From Vitis vinifera (Eukaryota; Streptophyta; Magnoliopsida; Vitales; Vitaceae): 64,000 nucleotides of DNA. The stretch is from NCBI RefSeq assembly GCF_030704535.1, contig NC_081808.1, positions 22,199,501-22,263,500 on the forward strand, read 5' to 3'. This document shows, in pieces, positions 24,755-53,564 of the stretch. How positions within the stretch are numbered: position 1 is the stretch's first letter; every line of letters begins with the position of its first letter. Made by a program: the position numbers and the translations under genes. The notes under the pieces are model-generated. The model was not told the origin of the DNA. It saw only the letters and a list, made by a program, of their open reading frames with translations, and did not search any database.

Positions 24755-26240
24755 GTTCTAATATTTTATAAATTAAAATTAATTGGATAAGATAAATTAT
24801 TAATATAATTTTAATTATTTAAATAAATTAATATCAATAAAAAAAAAAGTTGTCACCATATGTAGTAAAATTTTAGAATTAAAAATAAAATATTTTATAT
24901 AAATCTTAAAAAGGATTTAATTTTTTTTATTTAAAATGTAATAAAACATGTTTTAATAAAAATAGTTTTAAAATTTTAAAATAAATGAATATTAATATAT
25001 TAAAGGAATTTAAGATAATTTTAAAAAAAATATATATATAAATATTATCTTTGACCATAACTATATCAATTACACTTGTAAAATAACTTTAATATGTATA
25101 TTATAATTTATTTTATCATTTTTTGAAAATTTTCTAAGTATTTTCATAAATTTTGAATAATTTCCACGATATTTTTGTTAAAATATTTATCGATATATCC
25201 GTAAAATCAAGTATTGATATATCCATATTTATTAATATTTTCATCATTCCTTAACACTAATATTATACCCATTATTATAATTATTGCTTATTGTAGCATT
25301 TTGGGGCATGTTTTGTGCAGTTCATTTTGCCAGGTGGAAGGCTCCTGGAAGACAACGTGTCACCTTGTGGTTGGCTGCCAGGGAATCATGTAGTGGGTGA
25401 AAGAAACGAATGAGGAATGGACACGTGCATGGAAATATGTTGGGGTGGTTTGAAAGAAATTAAAAAAGATGGCAGGTAAGGGAGAACATATTTTGTTGCC
25501 TGTAAGGAGAAGATATTTTTAGTTGCTTGGGGAGCAAGTAGGGGGAAGCAGGAGTAGAGATATTTTTCTGAGGTGAGATGGTTAAAGGATGGAGAGAGAG
25601 AGTGAGGGGGGGGGGGGGCAACTTTTTTTTTTGGGTTACAGAGAGATTTTGGGGGGTAGCTTGGAATAAACCAAAAAAAGGAACTTGAGAAGATAATTGG
25701 GAATGGAAGAAGAGAAAGAGTTTTTTCTGCAGAGAAGAGCCATAGAAGGAGAGAGGAAAGGTATGACTGTCATGGATTCTTTGATTTTCTTTATCGACAT
25801 ATAGTCTCTTTCTCTTTTCTCAATATTTTTGTGGATTGCTTGATTAGGTGTTTTAGTTTTACAATTCTCGCTTGGTTTATGGGTTTATTGTTGCTATCTC
25901 CATCATTTTTTGGGGGTGTGATTTGAGAGCAATACAGTTCTGCTTTAACTTCACTATGCATCATGTGGGAGCCTTGTTTTTGTTCTTATTTCCATGGGAT
26001 ACATTCTAGTTCACTCACCTATAGCCAAGCCTGTTGATCTAAACATGAAACATGGCTTTGGTTGTTTTATTTGCTTTGTTAGTTTGTGCTTTGTTTTGTT
26101 TTTCCATTCCCTTGTTTTGGTATCTTGCCTCATTATACATTAGGTTGTACATCTCTACCTAAGAAAGCTAGGTAATGCAGCCATAGAACATAGTTCGTGA
26201 GTGTTGAGGGTGAATGAAGTTCCTCCAGTTGATTTGGGTT
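22920..26240. other. AT-rich intergenic DNA with microsatellites, no gene
   Basis: No coding region recognised. Homopolymer and simple-repeat tracts are frequent. A run of 13 G lies at 25606-25618 after a GA-rich stretch. The part 25300-25780 is purine-rich on the plus strand and may be old LTR-derived DNA, but I could not align it to anything else in the window. A sequence resembling a Pol III B box (minus strand GTTCGAATCC near 24320) has no tRNA fold around it. Confidence 0.4.
24683..24751. repeat. (AAT)n microsatellite
   Basis: Uninterrupted AAT/TAA trinucleotide run of about 23 units in AT-rich intergenic DNA; expected to be length-variable between individuals. Confidence 0.97.
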
Positions 26241-26241
26241 T

Positions 26242-26450
26242 GTGCAAAGATCTTGGATAGGAAATAAGCAGGATACTGCTCAAGCTATGTCTTGTGGAAA
26301 TACTGTTATTATGGTTCATCTAGATCAATTCGTTACTAAGAATGTTACACTAATCAATGAGAAAGAAGTTGATGCTCATCCAGTCATGGCAATAAAGCTC
26401 TCTACCTCACCTATTGTTCACGTTGCAATGCAATGCAAGGTTAAATCCTA
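26242..26450 (+). pseudogene. Elongation factor 2 fragment
   Basis: The translated segment KQDTAQAMSCGNTVIMVHLD, then [20 protein letters not shown] and SPIVHVAMQCKVKS follows eukaryotic EF-2 around the region 'KQET..[50 protein letters not shown]'-type sequence (domain III, elongation translocase). Only about 70 of some 840 residues are present. Similarity fades after LVEDLEPS. There is no start, intron or 3' part. It is the first of several host-gene pieces lying on the same strand. Frame is open here, but substitutions at normally fixed residues show it is not under EF-2 constraint. Confidence 0.8.
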
Positions 26451-26674
26451 CCCTCTTACACTTGTTGAAGATTTGGAGCCTTCTATTAAGCATATTCTAG
26501 GTGGTTTATGCTATTGATGGATCTACTGTTGCTCTAGTTGTTGTCCAAATATCTAAGGAAGCAGGTCGTTTGATTGATGAGGTGGTCACCTACCTTTTCA
26601 GCTTTGAAGGATGGAAAATATCACTGCATGCATTGGAGGCTACAAAAAAGCCGCAAAATAAAAATAAAAATAGG

Positions 26675-26812
26675 ACCCTTGAACTTATGCCCTTGAGCTA
26701 TGCTCTTGCTACCAAGCTTGGTACCCGCCTCACTGAGGGTAGGAAGAATGGAACTTGCTCATGGCTGAAGCCTGATGGTAAGACTCAAGTCATTATTGAG
26801 TATCACAATGAG
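26675..26812 (+). pseudogene. S-adenosylmethionine synthetase fragment
   Basis: The segment [20 protein letters not shown], then [20 protein letters not shown] and YHNE, matches the highly conserved central part of plant SAM synthetase (LATKLGARLTEVRKNGTC.WLRPDGKTQVTVEY). About 46 of ~390 residues remain. It is joined in frame, without a gap, to the GSK3 fragment that follows. The 170 bp before it (26501-26674) are open but not recognised. Plant SAM synthetase coding regions usually lack introns, so this piece alone does not tell whether the copy was RNA- or DNA-mediated. Confidence 0.85.
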
Positions 26813-28507
26813 TTGGTGCCAGGTGAACCAAACATGTCATATATTTGCTCAAGGTATTATAGGGCTCTAGAACTTATCTTTGGGGTTACAGAATATATAA
26901 CTGCCATTGATATGTGGTCTGTAGGCTGAGTTGTGGTTGAGCTTCTTCTTAGCCAACCACTGTGAGAAAACAAAGGTTATGCTTAGTTAAGAAAAACACC
27001 CAAAAGGAGAGGGGGGTGAATTGGGTTTTTCAAATCTTTTCAATCACAACAAATTTAAACAAAATATAAGCAAAGTAAAGAGATAGAGTTTAGAGAATTC
27101 AAACTCGAGTTTATAGTGGTTTGACACTTCCTTGCCTACGTCCACTCTCCTCAACCTCCTAACCGAGTGAGGGTTCCACTAACTTGAAGCTTCAACCAAG
27201 CTTCCAATCTTCTTACACTTGGATTCCAGCTCCAATGGGCTCTTACACAACCTCTTCAAGATTCAACCCTCTTGAAGGTTTTAACACTCAGATTGTTACA
27301 AGATATAATCACTCAACCTAGCTTAAGGAAGGCTCAAATACAAGACAAAGCTAGGATGACAAATAAGAGTGCACTAAAGGATATGCAAGTGGTGATTTAA
27401 TGCACTATGAAAGAAATGAGAGCTTTTTGATCAAGAACAGGTAGGTAGGCTTTGAATGCAAGTGTTATTTCATCAATAAATGAAGTAGAGCTTTCAATTT
27501 ATAGGTTTCTAAGCTCAAGAGTCAAAAACAGCAAAAGGTAACCTCGTCCGGTCGAGCTAAGGGCCGACCGGTTCACTAGCCGTTAGAGCATTTAATGCAT
27601 GACAGGTTACCGTTGCCTCAACCGGTCCTCGACCGGTAAGAGAAACACCTCAATTGGGAAGAGAAGGCTACTGGGAGAGAGAGAAGGTTTTTTACCTCCC
27701 TCAACCGGTCCTCGACCGGTTGAGCCTTTTTGGCCCCGAAAACCTATTTTTTTTATTTCTTTCTTTTCTAACACTTAGGCAAGGTCTTTAGGAAAATTAT
27801 TAAGCCAATTATAAAACATTTTGCCTAAGGTACATTAGTTAAAAACTCGGGTTTTAATGAAATCGACGTTTTAAATAATAAACCGAGTTTTCAAAGATGC
27901 ATGAAACATGTGAAAATCCTAAGTACACTCATGCATTCATCTTACATTAGTTTCCTATGATCACAAGTCTTCCAAGCGTCTCGATCTTTTATCCATTTGG
28001 TCCTTTGATGAATTTTCGAGTTTATACCTGAGATTCTTAAACATTTAAACCAATTAGTCACTTAACCATGGTTTGTTATCATCAAAACCCGATTAGGAGA
28101 ACCCTTAGGCTAACACACTGTTTCCTGAGGAAAGTGGTGTTGATCAATTGGTGGAAATCATTAGGATTCTGGGTATACCCACTAGAGAAGAATTAAGTGC
28201 ATGAATCCAAATTACAATGAGTTCAAGTTTTCACAAATCAAAGCTCACCCATGGCACAAGCTTTTCCATAAGCAAATGCTCCCAGAAGTTGTGTATCTTG
28301 TATTAAGGCTACTCCAGTATTCGCCAAATTTGAGATGCACCACCCTAGAATCATGCACACATTACTTCTTTGATGATTTAAGATAGCCAAATGCCTGCTT
28401 GTCAAATGGTCGGCCTCTTCCTCATTTATTCAATTTCATAACTCAAGAGCTGGTACACTCAACTTCTGAACTGCGTCAACGTCTCATTCCTGAGCATGCA
28501 AGGAAAT
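26813..28507 (+). pseudogene. GSK3/SHAGGY-like kinase fragment, split by a solo LTR
   Basis: Left part (26813-26962): [20 protein letters not shown], then [18 protein letters not shown], the activation loop with its conserved Tyr and subdomains VIII-IX. A TGA replaces the next Cys codon. Right part (28121-28507): [20 protein letters not shown], a frameshift near 28196, [39 protein letters not shown], and after another stop [17 protein letters not shown] and RQRLIPEH. The two parts join exactly at QPL|FP across the LTR and its 5-bp target duplication. Plant GSK3 genes have about a dozen exons, yet some 170 codons run here without an intron, so the source was spliced RNA. The upstream lobe is missing and it begins directly after SAM synthetase sequence. 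Confidence 0.88.
26963..28115 (-). mobile_element. Solo copia-family LTR with 5-bp target duplication
   Basis: A 1153-bp segment bounded by TG...CA and flanked on both sides by CACTG (26958-26962 and 28116-28120). On the minus strand it begins TGTTAGCCTAAGGG and carries the 'caattcacccccctct' motif near its end, like the LTR at 12326-13650, so it is a member of the same copia family in reverse orientation. No internal region is present: it is a solo LTR left by recombination between the two LTRs. It contains two near-identical palindromic stretches 'caaccggtcctcgaccggt' near 27640 and 27705. It interrupts the GSK3 fragment, so it is younger than that fragment. Confidence 0.9.
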
Positions 28508-29075
28508 AAGTTCATGAGCATGCACTGGTTTCATCTGTAGGCAATACAAAGGGGTTTTTGGATATGCTTAGTTGTCCCACAAGCCATGCTATCTTCGTCC
28601 AGTAATCTAGGCCCACCATCCTTTGGCCTTCACAGAATAGCCACAGGAAATATGAGGCCTAAGAGAGTTCAAAAATACTATGGCCAAGCTTATGGGAAAA
28701 GTGAGAGGAACAATGAAGTTCAGTTTGTTGTGAGTACTCCTTGTTGCTTCCACTCCCACCATGTATGCAAGGAATCTCCATGAACACCACCCAAAACCTT
28801 CATACTTGTCAATCTCACTATCTCCTATCATCCTTCAACACTTCCTACCCTTCATACCCATTTTCCTTACACCACGTACCCTTCATACCCATTTCCCATA
28901 CACCACGTATCCTCCATGCCCATCTTCAAACCCACTCCTCTCTTTAAATCTTCGCACATACCCATTAAACTCATTTCCCCGATATCCCTCTCGCTCATTT
29001 TCCATACATTCCCTTACATATTCCCTTTCTCATTTCTTTCCTAGACGCATGCATGGCCATGCATGGTCCCGCGTA
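28508..29075 (+). other. Unassigned segment of the gene-fragment mosaic
   Basis: This lies between the GSK3 and AIR12-like pieces. 28508-28740 has coding-like composition in short stretches but no family I recognise. From 28741 to 29050 the strand is pyrimidine-rich and contains a short tandem duplication (about 32 bp, 'ttcatacccat...caccacgta', at 28850-28915). The open frames that cross it are low-complexity and are not called as genes. Confidence 0.4.
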
Positions 29076-29401
29076 ACTGTGCTACCCATAAATTCAGTAA
29101 TAATGAGCTCTTCCAACGTCGTAGCGACTTTCCTACGATGGGTTCTTCCCTCCACAGGACGCACGACACCGATGGAAGTCTTTCCATTGCCTTTGTGTCA
29201 TCGCCGGCGGAGTTTGAGAGCTGGATTTCATGGGCTATAATCCCCAGTGGAAGTGACAGGGCCGGAGTGCAGTCACTCATCTCATTCAAGCAGACCGACG
29301 GCTCCATGACTGTGAAATCCTACAAGTTAAGCCACTACCAATCAGTGGAGCAAAAGAACCTCACCTTGGGGGTTCCTGACATGAGCGCTGAGAGATTCAA
29401 C

Positions 29402-29772
29402 TGTTGGAAATCAAGCCAGCATCCTCTGTTTACTTCTGTAATTAGTGTAATGTACAACCTTTATTATAATTGATTTAGGAGTAATTCTAGCAAGGTAGTT
29501 TATTCACTTTCCATGTAAGAGTAGTTTATATATTTAGGAGTAATTCTAGCAAGGTAGTTTATTCACTTTCCATGTAAGAGTAGTTTATTCACTTCCCATG
29601 TAAGAGTTTATTCACTTTCCATGTAAGGGAAATTCCATTCCGGAATTGTCTCATATCCGTAGGCTATTTATTTATGCTTTCATTCATTGTAAAGGAAGGT
29701 ATCACAGAATGAATTGAGGTGTTCCTCCATATTTTGTCTTCAAATTCTTCATATTTTTCTTCAAATTCTTCA
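29402..29772 (+). repeat. 5' LTR of the copia element
   Basis: It starts TGTTGG and ends TTCTTCA, 371 bp. An internal ~57-bp tandem duplication (aggagtaattctagcaaggt theme) is shared with the 3' LTR, so it was present before insertion. Confidence 0.96.
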
Positions 29773-32700
29773 TGGTATCAGAGCAGATTTAATCTTGTCT
29801 CATCGTCTTCATCTTTAGTCAGTTTTTTTTTACTCAATTCATTATTCTAATTTATGCCTAAATACGGTCCAGCCTTTGGAATGGTTACCAACTCATCATC
29901 CTCTACTTCTGATATCATCATCTCATCGTCTTCATCCTCTCATCAGATGGAAACCTCTCATCTTCCAATCACAGCCCATAAACTGAATGGGCAAAATTAT
30001 TTGCAATGGTCTCAGTCCATATTAATGTTTATACGGGGAAAGGAGAAAGATGACTACATCACCGGAGCTTCGGCGGCACCAGAAACCACAGCATCAACCT
30101 ACAAAAAGTGGATAGCAGAAAATAATATGGTCATGTCCTGGCTAGTCAACTCTATGACCGCTGACATTGGTGAAAATTTTCTGTCATTTGATACTGCCAA
30201 AGAAATCTGGGACACTGCAAAAGAAACTTTCTCAGACAAGGAAAACACATCTGAAATCATCCAGATTGAAGGCATCCTCCACGATTTGCGTCAAGGAAAC
30301 CTTACGGTAACTGAATATTTCAATACTCTTACTCGTCTATGGCGTCAACTTGATACGTTTGAGGTTCATAACTGGAATTGTGTTACAGATGGTTTTTTGT
30401 ATAAAAAGATTGTCGAAGGGAAACGTGTGTTTAAATTTTTGTTAGGTTTGAACAAAAATCTTGATGAAATCAGAGGAAGAATCATGGGAGTAAACCCCTA
30501 CCTAGCCTCAGAGAGGCATTCTCTGAAGTCCGTCGCGAAGAAAGTCGGAAAAATCTCATGATGGGATCCCATCAACAACTGAATATGGCAGAAAGCTCGG
30601 CTCTTAAGACTCAATTCGCTCCTTTTGACAACCGTCAAAAAATTAAAGGAGGTAGACCTTGGTGTGATCATTGCAGAAAGCCGGGACACTCAAGAGAAAC
30701 TTGTTGGAAGATTCATGGAAAGCCAGTAGATTGGAAGCCACGTCAACCACTTGAGAAAGAAGGACGAGGCAATCATGTGGCTATCGATGAACAATCGCCA
30801 CAACCTGAAGCTAGCCCTTTTAATAAGGAGCAAATGGAGATGCTTCAGAAACTACTATCTCCTCTTTTGTCAGTACAGTCACAAACTGGCTCATCTTCCA
30901 ACCAGGTCATTGGTTCCGGAACCTTGGCTCACAAAGGTAATTTTTTGAGTGCCTTCACTGCTGGTAAGAAACGTAAAAAACCTTGGATAGTGGACTCAGG
31001 AGCATCTGATCATATGACGGGAGATGCGACAATTTTTGACACATATAGCTCATGTCCAAATAATTTAACAGTCCGAATAGCAGATCTATCAAGGGATCTT
31101 ACTCTCAACTCTGTTCTCCTTGTTCCTAACTTGGACTGTAATTTATTGTCAATTAGTAAACTCACTAAGGAAAAGAGGTGTATTACTAATTTTTCCTCCA
31201 CTCACTGTGAATTTCAAGATTTGGATTCGGGGAAGACGATTGGCAATGCTGAGGAATGCTCTGGACTCTACATCCTTAAGGAGCACCACGATCCATAAGA
31301 ACAACCTCAAATGACAGTTGGTAGTAATTCTTTTTCGGTTTCATGTCAAAATAACGATAATGCAATTAGGTTGTGGCACTATCGCTTAGGTCATCCAAAT
31401 GTTATGTATCTCAAGCATTTATTTCCTTCATTATTTAATAAAAATCCACAATCCTTTGAGTGTGAAATCTGTCAATTATCAAAGCAAGTCCGGTCTCATT
31501 TTCCCATTCAACCCTATAAAGAGTCTAGTCCATTCTCAATGATTCATAGCGATATTTGGGGTCCGTCAAGAATAAAAAATGTAACTGGTACTAGGTGGTT
31601 TGTCTCATTCATAGATGATCACACTAGATTAACTTGGGTATTCCTCATGAAAGAAAAATCTGAAACGAGTCAAATTTTCAAAAATTTTAAAAATATGATT
31701 CAGACCCAATTCTAGTCAAAAATACAAATTCTAAAGTCTGATAATGCTAGGGATTATTTCAACTCCATTCTAGGAGAATTTCTAGCACAAGAAGGGATAG
31801 TTCACTTAAGTTCATGTGTTGATACCCCACAACAAAACGGAATCGTTGAAAGGAAAAATAGGCATTTGTTAGAGGTGGCTAGATCACTAATGTTCTCCAT
31901 GAATGTTCCAAAATTATTCTGGGGGCAAGCTGTCCTTACGGCAGCCTACCTCATCAATAGGATGCCGTCTAGGGTACTAAAATTCCAAACACCTTGTCAA
32001 ACACTCCTAAAATCCTTTCCGACTACTCGTCTCATCTCCACCGTCCCACCCAAAATTTTCGGATGCTCTGTCTTTGTTCATATTAATCAACAACATAGAA
32101 GTAAACTTGATCCTAGGTCACTCAAGTGCATCTTTCTTGGGTATTCTTCAAATCAAAAAGGGTATAAGTGTTACTCTCCGGTCACAAGAAAATTCTACAA
32201 TTCAATGGATGTCACCTTTTTTGAAACCCAACCTTACTATCCCAAAAATGATATTCAGGGGGAGAATTCAACTCAGGAATATCAATTTTGGGATCTTGAG
32301 TCATTCAGTGAGTCACCCATCACCACTGAAAATCACATTCCTCCAGAGTCATTTAATCAACCCGAGTCCATTGTTGACTTGTGGGATAAGGAGCACATCC
32401 AAGAGGAAACGGAGGAAAGAGCACTTTCTCAACAAACCCATGAGGCAGAATCGGGTCCTAATCCAAGCAAACTTCCAGGTAACAACGCTCCTGATGGTAC
32501 TGTTGATTCCGAGTTAGAAAATGATATTCTTAATATGCCCATAGCTTGGAGGAAAGGAGTTAGATCACGCACTCAGCATCCCATTGGAAATTTTATTTCT
32601 TATGATAAGCTATCACCTACGTTTCGTGCATTCACTTCTAGCATCACAGAGATACAAGTTCCTCAGAATATTCAGGAAGCTTTCAAGTATCCTAAGTGGA

Positions 32701-34206
32701 AGGCGGCAGTCGATGAGGAAGTTCGGGCGTTGGAAAAGAATGGTACGTGGGAAATTACTGACCTCCCAAGAGGTAAGAAACCAGTTGGGTGTAAGTGGAT
32801 TTTCACAATAAAGTACAAGGCAGATGGTAATGTGGACATGTATAAGGCTCGGTTGGTCGCCAAAGGATTCACCCAATCCTATGGCATTGACTATCAAGAA
32901 ACTTTTGCTCCAGTTGCCAAGCTTAATACTGTTCGTGTACTTTTATCCTTGGCAGCTAATCTCGATTGGTCGCTTCACCAACTTGATGTGAAGAATGCCT
33001 TCCTCAATGGTGACTTAGAGGAAGAAGTTTACATGGACATTCCTGCTGGACTTGAGACGACATCAAATTTCAACAAGGTTTGCAGACTCCGAAAATCCTT
33101 GTATGGTCTCAAACAATCTCCCAGGGCCTGGTTTGAACGGTTCACTAAGGTAGTGAAAGGGTACGGATTCGTTCAATGTCAATCCGATCACACATTATTT
33201 GTGAAACACTTCCCAGAAGGGAAACTGACAATTATCATTGTATATGTGGACGACATAATTTTGACAGGTGATCATGAAGAGAAAATCGACTTACTTAAAA
33301 AATTACTGACAAATGAATTTGAGATCAAGGATCTTGGAAACCTCAAGTACTTTCTCGGAATGGAGATTGCTAGGTCAAAGAAAGGTATAGCAGTCTCACA
33401 ACGCAAATACGTTCTGGACTTATTGAATGAAACAGAAATGCTAGGATGCAAGCCGGTAGAAACACCTATGGATACAACTGTCAAACTGGAAGAAAGTGAT
33501 GGAAGTGCGCCAGTTGATAAATGAAGATATCAACGTCTTGTGGGGAAACTCATCTATCTTTCTCATACAAGGCTAGACATCGGCTTCTCCGTTAGTGTGG
33601 TAAGTCAATTCATGAATAATCCAACCGAAAAACACATGACTGCTGTGATCAGAATATTGAGATACCTCAAGATGACACCGGGAAAGGGTCTCTTCTTTCA
33701 AAGAACAACAAAGAAAGAGATTGAGATTTTTTCAGATGCAGATTGGGCAGGTTCAGTGACTGATCGGAGATCAACTTCAGGCTATTGTTCATTTGTCTGG
33801 GGGAACTTGGTTACATGGCGAAGCAAGAAATAGTCAGTGCTAGCCCGTAGCAGTGCTGAGGCAGAATTTCGTGCTATGGCACAAGGTATCTGCGAGGAAA
33901 GCTGGTTGAACAGGCTGTTAGAAGAATTACGGGTTCCATTGAAGCATCCCATGGTGTTATACTGCGACAATCAAGCTGCCATCAGTATCGCTAAGAATTC
34001 GGTTCATCATGATCGAACTAAGCACGTGGAGATAGATCGACACTTTATCAAGGAAAAAATTGAAGAAGGAGTTTTCAAAGTCAGCTACACTTCGACAAAC
34101 TGTCAAACGGCTGACATTCTCACAAAAGCTCTTGCTCGAGTTAACTTCGAAGATCTGACAGAAAAACTTGGAATGATCAACATCTACAACGCGGCTTGAG
34201 GAGGAG

Positions 34207-34577
34207 TGTTGGAAATCAAGCCAGCATCCTCTGTTTACTTCCATAATTAGTGTAATGTACAGCCTTTATTATAATTGATTTAGGAGTAATTCTAGCAAGG
34301 TAGTTTATTCACTTTCCATGTAAGAGTAGTTTATATATTTAGGAGTAATTCTAGCAAGGTAGTTTATTCACTTTCCATGTAAGAGTAGTTTATTCACTTC
34401 CCATGTAAGAGTTTATTCACTTTCCATGTAAGGGAAATTCCATTCCGAAATTGTCTCATATTCGTAGGCTATTTATTTATGCTTTCATTCATTGTAAAGG
34501 AAGGTATCACAAAATGAATTGAGGTGTTCCTCCATATTTTGTCTTCAAATTCTTCATATTTTTCTTCAAATTCTTCA
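34207..34577 (+). repeat. 3' LTR of the copia element
   Basis: 371 bp, same length and ends as the 5' LTR and about 98.4% identical to it. It is followed at 34578-34582 by the TCAAC target duplication. Confidence 0.96.
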
Positions 34578-34712
34578 TCAACAAGTAAATGGTGATCTTC
34601 GCCATATTCTAGCTGCCAGCAAGTTGGACAATGGTGAATTAGGTGCAGCAAGTCAGGAGTACGGTCACCGATAGTAGACCTGTAATTTATGATGCTTAGT
34701 CACCGAATCCGA

Positions 34713-34905
34713 ATGCCAAAAGAACTCAAAGAGGTTTTCAAGGTCTTTGACAATGATCAAAATGGATTTATTGCTACTACAGAGCTTTAGTATGTAATGA
34801 TAAACCTCGGTGAGAAGTTGACTGATGAAGAGGTGGATGAGATTGATTCGAGAAGTGGATGTAGAAGGTGATAGGCAAGTAAGTTATGAGGAGTTTGTGA
34901 GGAAG
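34713..34905 (+). pseudogene. Calmodulin fragment (EF-hands 3 and 4)
   Basis: PKELKEVFKVFDNDQNGFIA, a stop in place of the Arg after TTEL, YVMINLGEKLTDEEVDEI, then after a one-base insertion near 34843 IREVDVEGDRQVSYEEFV. This follows the second half of plant calmodulin almost residue by residue, including the loop DNDQNGFIATTE and the last EF-hand DVEGDRQVSYEE. The first two EF-hands are absent. It follows the AIR12-like piece directly on the same strand, with about 40 bp between. Confidence 0.88.
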
Positions 34906-35325
34906 ACCCTTCATCAACTAGCATTTCACCTTCAAGAGAATTCATCACGATCCCAATGCATGCTATTGTCATCTTTCCCTAACATGAATCAATCCGGTGG
35001 CATGTTCATGACTTTAAATATCGATGCCCCACTTATAGGTGTTGCTCCATTGATGAGTTCCTATGGGGTGATGTCTTTGGAGCACTGTTTCCTCATCCAA
35101 GAATGCTAATGATGCCCGGTGGGATTAAAAAAACAATTTTGATGGTTCTGAAGATAGCGATTCGATAGCTTCTCAAATTTCAAGTAGTCTTAATCAGACC
35201 AAAATGGTGGTACTGGTTCATTAAAGTGTCAGTTCTCCCCGAAAGTCAACCTTGAAGTTCTTACTTTATGGAAAAACCAAGCAGTGGGGTCCAAAGGTGC
35301 AAAAGATCTTTCTGGTGTCAAAAGC
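34906..35325 (+). other. Unassigned segment of the gene-fragment mosaic
   Basis: Between the calmodulin and P0 pieces. Short coding-like stretches occur in shifting frames (for example SDSIASQISSSLNQTKM near 35160-35210 and GVAPLMSSYGV near 35040), but I do not recognise a family. It probably derives from one or two further transcripts. Confidence 0.35.
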
Positions 35326-35523
35326 AAAGCAAGTGACCAGTATCTTGCCAAGCTTGGAATAGGACCTTTCTCTTATAGTCTTACAATGCTATCAATTTAT
35401 GATAAGGGTCCGGTTTTCAACTCTGAGGCATTTGATCCTACAGATGTGGACCTCATTGAGAAGTTTGTAGTTGATCTCTCTCTGGTTACCTCGCTTGCAT
35501 TGGTTATCCCATACCCAACCTCA
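35326..35523 (+). pseudogene. 60S acidic ribosomal protein P0 fragment
   Basis: SDQYLAKLGIGPFSYSLTML, SIYDKGPVFNSEAFDPTDVD, LIEKFVVDLSLVTSLALVIP and YPTS match the central P0 segment [53 protein letters not shown]. P0 anchors the ribosomal stalk. About 66 of ~320 residues are present; similarity stops abruptly after YPTS. It is the last recognised piece of the same-strand mosaic. Confidence 0.85.
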
Positions 35524-35939
35524 GTGCTCGCATTCCGGGTCTACTTGCATGATTTTGGTTTGCATGACCACTTTCTCTAGGCCCGTTTTCACTGCCCATA
35601 CCTGCATGCATGACTTCAAAATTGATTTTTTGGAAAATCTAGTTTTCAAATGATTTAATTCTCAACTCTTCATCCCTCTTTAATGTTTAGGTTCCTCAAA
35701 ATTCCGTTTTTAATAAAATTTTGTTGCCATTTTTCCTTCTGGCAAGCAATTTTCACATTTCCTCTGTTTTTAAAAATGTTCTAAAATTTAAATTTCATAA
35801 TTTCAAGTGATGGAATTTATGAAATTGATTCATGCAAAAATAAATTGGGCTTTGGTGAGGGCTCAACATTGGTGATGTTTTCTTTAAAATAAAAATAAGT
35901 TTGAGTGAAGTGTCATGTGTGCCATTAGTGGTTTCATAT

Positions 35940-36426
35940 TCTGTTTAGTGATGCGTATAACATATTTTATGCTCATTCTTGTGCACTGACCTCATTTCCT
36001 GATAACGCATTGTCGTTTGTTGCCAAGGTACGCACCCATTCTCACTCTAACCATTCTCCATGCATGCTCTAACTTTCAGTGTGTGATCATTTTCGTTTCC
36101 ATCGATTTCCTTACCAATTATCATGATTGTTTCATCTTATTAGTAAAGACCCGTTTTTTAGGGACTTAGAGGAATGCTACTGTCTTTACCGTACCTTCTC
36201 AATAAGTAATCTGACCCTCAAGCTCATATTTGGTTTCCACGAACCACATTTTCCAAATAAGGAGTCACACTTATGGTTTTCTTTCTTATTTTGTTCACCC
36301 TTTAAAAATAAAAGAAAAATAAGTGACAACTCCAATTCATTTTCTTAATAAATAAATCATTTTTCAAATAAAAAAGTGAGTTTGTTATCGAGTGGAAGCG
36401 CATTGAACAAAAATGCAGGGTCCACA
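35940..36426 (-). mobile_element. Gypsy-like LTR fragment
   Basis: Read on the minus strand from 36426 it begins TGTGGACCCTGC and aligns with the start of the solo LTR at 52582: shared 'gtgactccttatt', 'gagaaggtacggtaaagac' against 'gggaaggtacggtaaagac', and 'cctctaagtccctaaa'. Similarity covers the first ~450 bp and then fades. The other end of the LTR was not found, so it is truncated or strongly diverged toward 35600. It is older than the 52582 copy by appearance. Confidence 0.7.
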
Positions 36427-38764: not shown

Positions 38765-39053
38765 CGGTTTCAGGAAATTTGAAGGAAAATGTAAGGGAAA
38801 TAAAATATAAAGGAAAAATAGAAGAAAAAATAAATAAAGAAAAATAAAAAAAATAGATTAAAAATTGATAAATTATTTTTTTTTGTTACTTCAAACTTAT
38901 TTTATTTATTTTAACTCATTAATATAAAGATTAAATAATTTAAAAATATATAAGCTTTTAATTAGTTTTAATTATATTTGATTTTCTTTGATATTTTTCA
39001 TATGACAACCAAACATGAAAAAATCATTTTTCTTTGCATTTTTTTTCTTTCCT
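38765..39053 (-). mobile_element. MITE, inverted copy (partly lost ends)
   Basis: Read on the minus strand the interior matches the two copies at 39056 and 39377: 'catgtttggttgtcatatg', 'aatcaaatataattaaaac', 'tcaatttttaatctatttt'. The terminal repeat nearest 39053 merges with the next copy, and the far end is diverged (tttcaggaaatttga against cccgaaaaatttga). No coding capacity. Confidence 0.75.
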
Positions 39054-39055
39054 TA

Positions 39056-39366
39056 GGCTATGTTTGGTTCCCGGAAAGTATAAAGGAAAGAAAAAAAATG
39101 ATAAGGAAAATGATTTTCTCATGTTTGGTTGTCTTATAAAAAATATCAAAGAAAATCAAATATAATTAAAACTAATTAAAAACTTATGTATTTTTAAATT
39201 ATTTAATCTTTATATTGATGAGTTAAAATAAATAAAATGAGTTTGAAGTAACAAAAAAAATAATTTATCAACTTTTAATCTATTTTTTTATTTTCCTTCT
39301 ACTTTTCCTTTGTATTTTCTTGCCCTCGCATTTTCCCTCAAATTTTTCGGGAACCAAACATAACCA
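39056..39366 (+). mobile_element. MITE copy 1 with terminal inverted repeats
   Basis: About 311 bp. The left end is ggctatgtttggttcccgga and the right end, read inverted, ggttatgtttggttcccgaa: near-perfect terminal inverted repeats of about 19 bp. AT-rich interior, no ORF. Target-site duplication is unclear because three copies abut. The end sequence resembles that of the larger element at 11511-12230. Confidence 0.88.
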
Positions 39367-39376
39367 TAGAGTTTAA

Positions 39377-39702
39377 GGCTATGTTTGGTTCCCGGAAAGT
39401 ACAAAGGAAAGAAAAAAAATGCTAAAGAAAATGATTTTCTCATGTTTGGTTGTCCTATGAAATATATCAAAGAAAATCAAATATAATTAAAACTAATTAA
39501 AAACTTATGTATTTTTAAATTATTTAATCTTTATATTGATGAGTTAAAATAAATAAAATGAGTTTGAAGTAACAAAAAAAATAATTTATCAACTTTTAAT
39601 CTATTTTTTTTTATTTTCCTTCACTTTTTCTTTCCTTCTAGTTTTCCTTTGTATTTTCTTTCTCTCGCATTTTCCCTCAAATTTTTCGGGAACCAAACAT
39701 AG
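39377..39702 (+). mobile_element. MITE copy 2 with terminal inverted repeats
   Basis: It has the same orientation as copy 1 and very high similarity to it, including the interior 'tatattgatgagttaaaat' and the ends ggctatgtttggttcccgga / tttcgggaaccaaacatag. It is longer by a short insertion near 39615-39645 ('cactttttctttcctt'). Confidence 0.88.
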
Positions 39703-51985: not shown

Positions 51986-53564
51986 GTTTGGGCAGATTTA
52001 GCGGGACAGTTGGAGGCAGACAAACCGTGGGATCATATATAAATAATTTTAAAAAAATGACAAAAAAAAAAGTGAGATTATTTTCTTAAATTTCAAATGA
52101 ATATTCTTTTGGAAATGGATCGCAAGAATATCAAATTTTGATCATTGAGTGTTTATATCGCTTAATATTTGATTTCAAATAATATAAAATAATGTTTTAC
52201 TTTTATTAATTTTTTTTTTTTAATATTTGTGTTCTTCTGATTTTATTTTCATTTTTATTTAATTTTTTTCATTAAAATACCAAGATGTTTTCACGTTTCC
52301 ATTTTTGGATTCATTTTTCTAAAAATGAAAATGAAAAATATCATTCAAATATTAAATGAAAATACAAAACAATCTTAAAAAGCTTTTATAAAAATCATTT
52401 TCAAATAAATTTTGGTCACAGATAACAATATTAATAAATCTATTTTAAGAAAAAAAAATCACTCTTAAATATAAATCTTTTATTTGAAAATTTTTAATGA
52501 ACTTTAATTATATATTTTTAGGAGGAATCAAGATGATTTGTTTTTAATATTTTCTTTTTATGTGTGTTTTTAATGAAAGTGTGTGGACCCCGTATTTGGG
52601 CTCATGCGTTTTCCACTTGATGACGTGCTCGTTGTTAATTTTGAAAAATGATTTCATTTATTAAAACAATGATTTGGAGTCGCCATTTATTTTTGTTTTA
52701 TTATTTTAAAAAAGGGTAAACAAAATAAGAAAAAAAAAACCCTAAATGTGACTCCTTATTTTGGAAAAAGTGGTCTGTGAAAAAAATCGGATCAGGCTCG
52801 GGGGTTAGGTTACTTATCGGGAAGGTACGGTAAAGACCGTGACACCCCTCTAAGTCCCTAAAGTCGGGTCTCTACTAATAAAATTGAAGCAATCATAGCA
52901 ATGGATGAGTAAATCAATGAATACCCAGAATAGATCATGCACATGTGAGAATCAGGACATGCATAAACAACGATTAGAGGGAAAATGGGTACATACCTGA
53001 GCAACGATCCACCATGCGCTATCAATACAGGGGTTAGTGCACAATTTAGGAATAATTTCTAGCGTGCATGTCTGAGAGTAGGATAAATCAATCATGTATC
53101 ATAATCAAATCGATCTATCAGTCAATCAATCGATCAATCACATATGTGGGGCCCCCACCAAAACCCGTTTATTTTACATGAATTAATCCCATAAATTCCA
53201 TTATTCGGAATTACGGAAAATTCATTCATGCTTATTAAAATCAAGAGGAGCAGAAGATTGTTTGAAGACCAGAATGAAATTAAAGCTTTTTGAGAAAAAA
53301 TCGGATTTTTGAAATTCATTTGAAAATTTGGAGTCTCGAAGGTTATTTAAAGAAAATTGGGATTTTAGAGTTTATTTGAAGATCGGACTTGAATTAAATG
53401 CGAGAATGAGAATTTTTAGAAATTAAATTTGAACGAGATTGAAAACTTTGAAAATGATTTGAGAGTTCGGGATTTTAAATGAGGGGATAAGTGGATGAGT
53501 GAATAAGTAAAGGGATGGAATAATAACGATGGTGAAATAATAAAGTTTAGGTAAATAATTGTGA

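Follow-up and report, generated by a model that had tools for sequence, protein, structure and literature searches.

A 64,000-nucleotide stretch of the Vitis vinifera genome (contig NC_081808.1, positions 22,199,501 to 22,263,500, forward strand; hereafter the window) holds a mosaic of fragments from at least eight host genes, all in sense orientation, within a single long terminal repeat (LTR). This LTR comes from a retrotransposon family that carries gag and is apparently non-autonomous. In that family, reverse transcriptase very probably switched templates repeatedly onto host mRNAs within the LTR, probably in its R region. A first-pass annotation made from the sequence alone had proposed a chimeric cDNA made by template switching; more than one event is involved, since other LTRs of the same family carry other host mRNAs. 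The argument for template switching is carried by relatives on contigs C4, C13 and C19 of the window's own genome, which served for the DNA comparisons (495.6 Mb, 21 contigs; the window lies on C4).

The LTR that carries the mosaic

The carrier of the mosaic, left unnamed in the first-pass annotation, was recognised from copies with common ends as the LTR itself, and the unit, previously bounded at 26242–35523 of the window, extends to 25292–36426. The sequences immediately 5' of the EF-2 fragment and immediately 3' of the P0 fragment are both repeated in the genome. An LTR on C16 has the same upstream part, the same pair of EF-2 and S-adenosylmethionine synthetase (SAMS) fragments and the same downstream part as the window. 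Two further copies on C3 and C13, L053 and L054, are 97.9% identical across 2.96 kb reaching from the upstream to the downstream part; L054 is a solo LTR with the target site duplication (TSD) ATTAG on both sides, and L053 is followed by AAATGGCGACTCCGCTGGGGAC, which resembles a primer-binding site (PBS). The match over the whole span, the perfect TSD round one copy and the PBS after the other indicate that everything from leader to trailer is LTR. Two other arrangements were rejected: leader and trailer are not the two LTRs of one element, as their sequences are not alike, and the trailer is not a separate solo LTR beside the mosaic, as the C3 and C13 copies match over the whole leader-to-trailer span.

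After subtraction of two nested elements, the window LTR has a net length of about 4.8 kb, and its end motifs are the same as those of the LTRs with perfect TSDs (L054 and those on C13, C11 and C4). The 5' block may act as a promoter. The intron-like leader segment gave 41 matches in the genome (40 of 1802 first-look candidates scored) and the search with the 3' block scored 40 of 3704 such candidates, so that neither list is a copy number; a PBS-like sequence stands after three of the aligned copies of the 3' block. The features of the unit, in window coordinates, are as follows.

25292–36426, plus strand: solo LTR with TG..CA ends, starting TGTAGCATTTTGGGG and ending GGGTCCACA
25292–25760, plus: 5' block, the LTR start and then a purine-rich leader, common to the C16 copy and the starts of other LTRs
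25761–26143, plus: high-copy, intron-like leader segment, GTATGACT ... TTAG
26242–26511, plus: EF-2 (eEF2) fragment (PDB phmmer E 1.9e-6)
26669–26821, plus: SAMS fragment (PF02772, E 4.9e-13)
26812–26962, plus: first part of the GSK3/SHAGGY fragment (C15 parent block, 92%; Pkinase PF00069, E 5e-4)
26963–28115, no strand assigned: later solo LTR, TSD CACTG (26958–26962 and 28116–28120, by eye)
28116–28667, plus: second, intronless part of the GSK3 fragment (five further blocks of the C15 gene, 19174129–19175226)
28631–29100, plus: pyrimidine-rich module of the LTR family, directly behind EF-2 in the C18 and C19 copies and partly recurring in the C4 LTR
29077–29401, plus: first part of the AIR12-like (DUF568) fragment (match 29077–29394 to parent C7:18421264, 83%; PF04526, E 7e-6)
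29402–34577, plus: later copia element, LTRs 98% identical, TSD TCAAC (by eye)
34583–34727, plus: second part of the AIR12-like fragment (match from 34589; parent C7:18421595–18421733, 82%)
34722–34906, plus: calmodulin fragment (EF-hand, E 0.001; two blocks of parent C17:14604308–14604679)
34895–35068, plus: KH-domain protein gene fragment (parent C1:12695569–12695742, 85%)
35064–35271, plus: rhamnose-synthase-like (RHM) fragment (parent C19:320682–320887, 85%)
35327–35555, plus: ribosomal P0 fragment (PDB phmmer E 1.3e-15; best contiguous parent C1:21099827, 76%)
35556–36426, plus: conserved 3' block of the LTR, ending GGGTCCACA, repeated in the genome and with a common end in the aligned copies

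The six donors already named (EF-2, SAMS, GSK3, AIR12-like, calmodulin and P0) are present on the plus strand in the order given, as judged from profile and PDB matches and, for all but EF-2, from DNA matches in the same genome. The estimate of at least six donors rises to at least eight with the two pieces between calmodulin and P0, which we take to derive from a KH-domain protein gene and a rhamnose synthase gene, and the identified host sequence amounts to about 2.3 kb instead of about 3 kb. The SAMS and GSK3 parts are indeed joined in frame, sharing one open frame at 26501–26929, and both later LTR insertions proved real; the element of the nested solo LTR recurs at L040 with 87% identity. 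The point at which the sequence departs from the EF-2 part differs among copies of the LTR family. The description of the donors as mostly housekeeping genes needs qualification for the family, in which pieces of BAK1/SERK, cellulose synthase and O-fucosyltransferase genes also occur.

Relatives, spliced sources and joins

Members of the family combine TG..CA ends with a short TSD, and paired LTRs with a PBS and a polypurine-type tract, as LTR retrotransposons do. Perfect TSDs flank L054 (ATTAG) and the C13 (CTGCT), C11 (GACCC) and C4 (CTCTT) members; that of the C16 copy is imperfect (CATGA/CATGC, four of five bases), and the flanks of L065 on C3 do not match. Three LTR pairs were found, all with a PBS after the 5' LTR, and their two LTRs differ at 0 of 4181 positions on C19 (a partial LTR), 1 of 1873 on C13, and 2 of 4034 plus eight gap columns on C3. 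The C13 element has 1873-bp LTRs, a PBS, GAAGAGGGGCATATT as a polypurine-type tract before the 3' LTR, and an interior of about 10 kb with a gag open reading frame (ORF) of 425 aa (Retrotrans_gag PF03732, E 4e-11); no pol was recognised in this interior, of which the two longest ORFs were scanned and the shorter ones only listed. A second PBS follows the second C3 LTR, and the locus of the C3 pair is therefore more complex than a single element. In each pair both LTRs carry the same host piece: BAK1/SERK on C13 (E 2.2e-15, with a 95% match on C18), beta-tubulin on C3, and on C19 a piece of what we take to be a GIP1-like gene.

The C4 and C13 LTRs have nearly identical 5' blocks followed by different host content. 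The first 253–257 bp of the C4, C3 and C11 LTRs are 98.8–99.2% identical to the C13 LTR (98.8% for C4) and their 3' blocks 78–79%; no match of the C13 LTR to these three was reported outside the 5' and 3' blocks. Likewise, apart from the 3' block, no match was reported between the C4 LTR and the C3 and C11 LTRs beyond the first 315–319 bp or so. Pieces of the C4 LTR match the class-III aminotransferase, M20 dimerisation and cellulose synthase families, and the C13 LTR holds SERK.

For four pieces the best parent shows gaps within the captured part, and in all four these introns are missing. A piece of about 550 nt in the C4 LTR corresponds to seven blocks of a C3 gene (19908561–19910217, 93–100% identity), presumably a GABA-transaminase gene to judge from its Pfam family and from general knowledge; the six parental gaps (67–671 bp, with GT..AG borders by eye) are missing from the LTR. 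The window GSK3 piece spans six C15 parent blocks (exons) without the intervening DNA, and GT..AG borders were read by eye for most of them, in agreement with the spliced source proposed for it earlier. The calmodulin piece lacks about 194 bp that lie between its two C17 parent blocks, and the GIP1-like piece of the C19 pair joins two C10 blocks that are 356 bp apart in the parent. The caveat raised at the outset, that the parents might lack introns in the captured parts, thus does not apply to GSK3 and calmodulin, whose parents have gaps there. The SERK, AIR12, KH, RHM and P0 pieces are uninformative on introns, since each matches its best parent contiguously.

Joins were examined where both parents could be aligned with the mosaic; the remaining joins are older or lack an assigned parent. 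Microhomology of 4–8 nt was found at four of the five, with P values calculated against random joins between the same two parents. The AIR12 and calmodulin parents share the 8 nt of AGGAACTC at their join, from which the window copy differs at one (P 0.0006); calmodulin and KH share TTGTGAG (7 nt, P 0.0002), KH and RHM share TGGGG (5 nt, P 0.008), and in the C4 LTR the GABA-transaminase piece and an mRNA that we assume to be DWF1-like share ACAA (4 nt, P 0.019).

A survey of orientation extended these observations to 35 regions, which are LTR interiors or stretches reaching at most 1.5 kb from an LTR block, some possibly extending past the LTR. At an E value of 0.001, 150 sense ORFs matched 31 Pfam families and 109 antisense ORFs matched one. 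ORFs were of at least 62 aa, and the initial list held 183 sense and 119 antisense ORFs in 37 regions. A filter for sequence shared by leaders or trailers, applied on the sense side alone, took out 17 ORFs; a further 16 sense and 10 antisense ORFs were then removed, of which only three did not come from L021 and L026, two redundant copies. Among the 25 listed of the 31 on the sense side, one is a copia gag and several overlap, leaving by our reading about 19 distinct host families. The fragments are not independent, since some recur in sister copies (KH, importin and O-fucosyltransferase, three each).

Template switching and competing explanations

We favour template switching by the element's reverse transcriptase because its signature is visible: spliced mRNAs join directly at short homology, they lie in sense orientation, and young pairs carry the pieces in both LTRs. 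Under this reading the LTRs keep a short 5' block and a 3' block of 0.8–0.9 kb, and the middle is replaced time and again by spliced host mRNA. Element RNA would start in the 5' block of one LTR and be polyadenylated in the 3' block of the other; since it would run from the one to the other, the variable part would be the R region. During copying of U5 and R from the tRNA primer, the presumed strong-stop step, reverse transcriptase would jump at short microhomology onto host mRNAs, which would have to be packaged; sometimes it would move on to a further host mRNA, and afterwards it would return to element RNA for U3. As both daughter LTRs would derive from the switched strand, captured pieces would be expected in both, sense and intronless, and later rounds would multiply the copy, with pieces being added or exchanged for others. 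The simplest account of pieces in both LTRs seems to be a switch no later than the first strand transfer, with R as the stretch being copied.

More tentatively, and with our doubts outweighing our confidence, R may be a permanent but dispensable site for host mRNA: first-strand transfer via host transcripts would be normal and recurrent, and the LTR bodies would turn over as U3 and U5 persist. If this is true, LTRs would consist largely of host coding sequence, and small-RNA silencing would hit them only at a cost to host genes.

It is unlikely, in our estimate, that switching onto host mRNA occurs anywhere along the element RNA and that captures in the LTR are merely tolerated, its middle having no essential function. 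All the evidence for template switching applies equally to this explanation, and the conserved blocks at both LTR ends suggest that selection keeps only those. The 10-kb interior of the C13 element speaks against it, one of its two scanned ORFs giving gag and the other no family; the argument is weak, because the shorter ORFs were listed and not scanned.

Host fragments might have been exchanged between LTR copies, chiefly through DNA recombination or gene conversion after few original captures, but this is improbable. The EF-2, KH, P0 and pyrimidine-rich modules do recur in several LTRs in varied combinations, as such exchange would predict. Against this, several pieces are near their presumed parents (SERK 95%, GABA transaminase 93–100%, GIP1-like 95%) and few other copies were reported, which suggests recent, fresh capture.

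Independent processed retrocopies, inserted one by one into old LTRs and then amplified, would also explain why pieces from intron-bearing parents are intronless, and an approximately 11-nt repeat (acaaaaaagcc/acagaatagcc, by eye) flanks the SAMS–GSK3 block. We nevertheless judge this origin very improbable: no poly(A) tail was seen by eye at the fragment ends within the window, the four joins with 4–8 nt of microhomology lie directly between two host mRNAs, and at least eight donors stand in tandem, all in sense. Helitrons can carry several gene fragments (PMC6431247), but the capture of genomic fragments by a Helitron or Pack-MULE inside the LTR has next to no probability. The absent introns of GSK3, calmodulin, GABA transaminase and the GIP1-like gene contradict it, and family units have TG..CA ends and TSDs of 5 bp, with a PBS as well where LTRs are paired; the earlier preference for a chimeric cDNA made by template switching over these transposons is borne out by the intron losses and the microhomology at four of five joins.

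Besides the 11-nt repeat, several observations weigh against template switching in R as we propose it. The flanks of the window LTR, CTTAT (5') and CTTAC (3'), form an imperfect target duplication matching at four of five bases, and the best parent of the P0 piece is only 76% alike. Splice borders were read for GABA transaminase and most of GSK3 only, and the GIP1-like and calmodulin gaps are putative introns. At the fifth join, between SAMS and GSK3, TGGTGCCA lies near both partners, but the exon before it in the GSK3 parent could not be located, which leaves the case unsettled. A stretch of about 1.1 kb is 76% identical between the C3 and C11 LTRs, and none of their five scanned ORFs matched a Pfam family, so that different host content behind a near-identical 5' block holds for C4 versus C13 only. 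Stretches of each LTR interior carry no identification. The sole antisense Pfam match is a Pirin at L039:3–545, minus strand, about 0.8–1.3 kb upstream of an LTR 3' block, and may lie outside the LTR. Three simple TATA patterns were absent from the first 600–1000 bp of five LTRs; the placement of R is inferred, and captures may not be restricted to the LTR.

Relation to known elements and further observations

To our knowledge, the case for host mRNA capture by plant retroelements has mostly rested on isolated, old examples located within the element. The family described here offers many cases in one genome, some of them young, for which parent genes, missing introns and precise joins are available, and the mechanism of capture (the site of the jump, the choice of mRNA and the extent of homology) becomes directly countable. 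As the captures sit in the LTR, which is regulatory DNA, fusions of a promoter to exons of host genes are possible.

Among known elements with long LTRs, large retrotransposon derivatives (LARDs) have a non-coding interior between 4.5-kb LTRs. The C13 element resembles them and gag-only elements in its long LTRs and in that gag was recognised and pol was not (two ORFs scanned), and differs from LARDs in its gag ORF and interior of about 10 kb. Its PBS, read directly as TGGCGACTCC(A/G)CTGGGGA, resembles the one generally given for Ogre/Tat Ty3-gypsy elements; no pol by which the family could be placed was recognised in the two ORFs scanned. The host pieces of maize Bs1 reportedly lie between its LTRs; if so, the present family differs in holding them inside the LTRs, in drawing on at least eight genes for the window copy and in varying its contents from copy to copy.

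The published comparisons that follow are limited to the accessible parts of the sources. Bs1 shares with the present family several host gene pieces in one LTR element, from three genes in its case; that source places them within the element and is no more specific (PMC13317346). In maize B73, 425 LTR retrotransposons with nuclear gene fragments represent at least 189 captures (PMC2774510); the likeness lies in LTR elements with such fragments, at least eight of which stand here in one LTR. Abnormal template switching has been described for BARE-2 and Veju, altering the LTR in BARE-2 (PMC13317346; PMC1950507), but there the switch goes to another retrotransposon or to unknown DNA instead of to spliced host mRNA. 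Ogre LTRs measure 1.9–6.5 kb, and Ogre/Tat elements are thus alike in their very long LTRs; host mRNA pieces in the LTRs are unmentioned in the accessible part of that source, which places captures between LTRs or beside pol and env (PMC6431247). Host fragments in plant LTR elements and abnormal template switching are therefore already known (PMC13317346, PMC2774510, PMC3726574, PMC6431247, PMC1950507). No report of host mRNA mosaics inside LTRs was found in the open literature searched, a scope outside which subscription papers and repeat databases lie, and this is no proof that none exists.

Two loci on C9 concern the leader. At L011:5903–6439 (C9:22273902–22274438), an uninterrupted TRAP-beta frame of 179 aa (Pfam E 6e-54) stands directly behind leader and EF-2, possibly a promoter–retrogene fusion. 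At C9:21479346–21773438 (L025 and L027–L030), at least seven leader copies lie within 300 kb, about 21–104 kb apart, and the five that were aligned carry about 76 extra nt immediately ahead of the donor-like site GGTATGACT; here the leader may be the 5' exon of a duplicated gene cluster.

The C16 copy of the LTR (L009/L010, C16:17287909–17296908) is broken by a large inverted-repeat structure with 2.4-kb arms that are 94% identical. In the window itself, a cluster of direct and inverted repeats (77–240 nt, 74–97%) at 38802–39701 possibly represents nested small transposons, and a second 3' block of the same LTR family, 70–81% identical to the others, occupies 52582–53312 on the minus strand and ends GGGGTCCACA at 52582.

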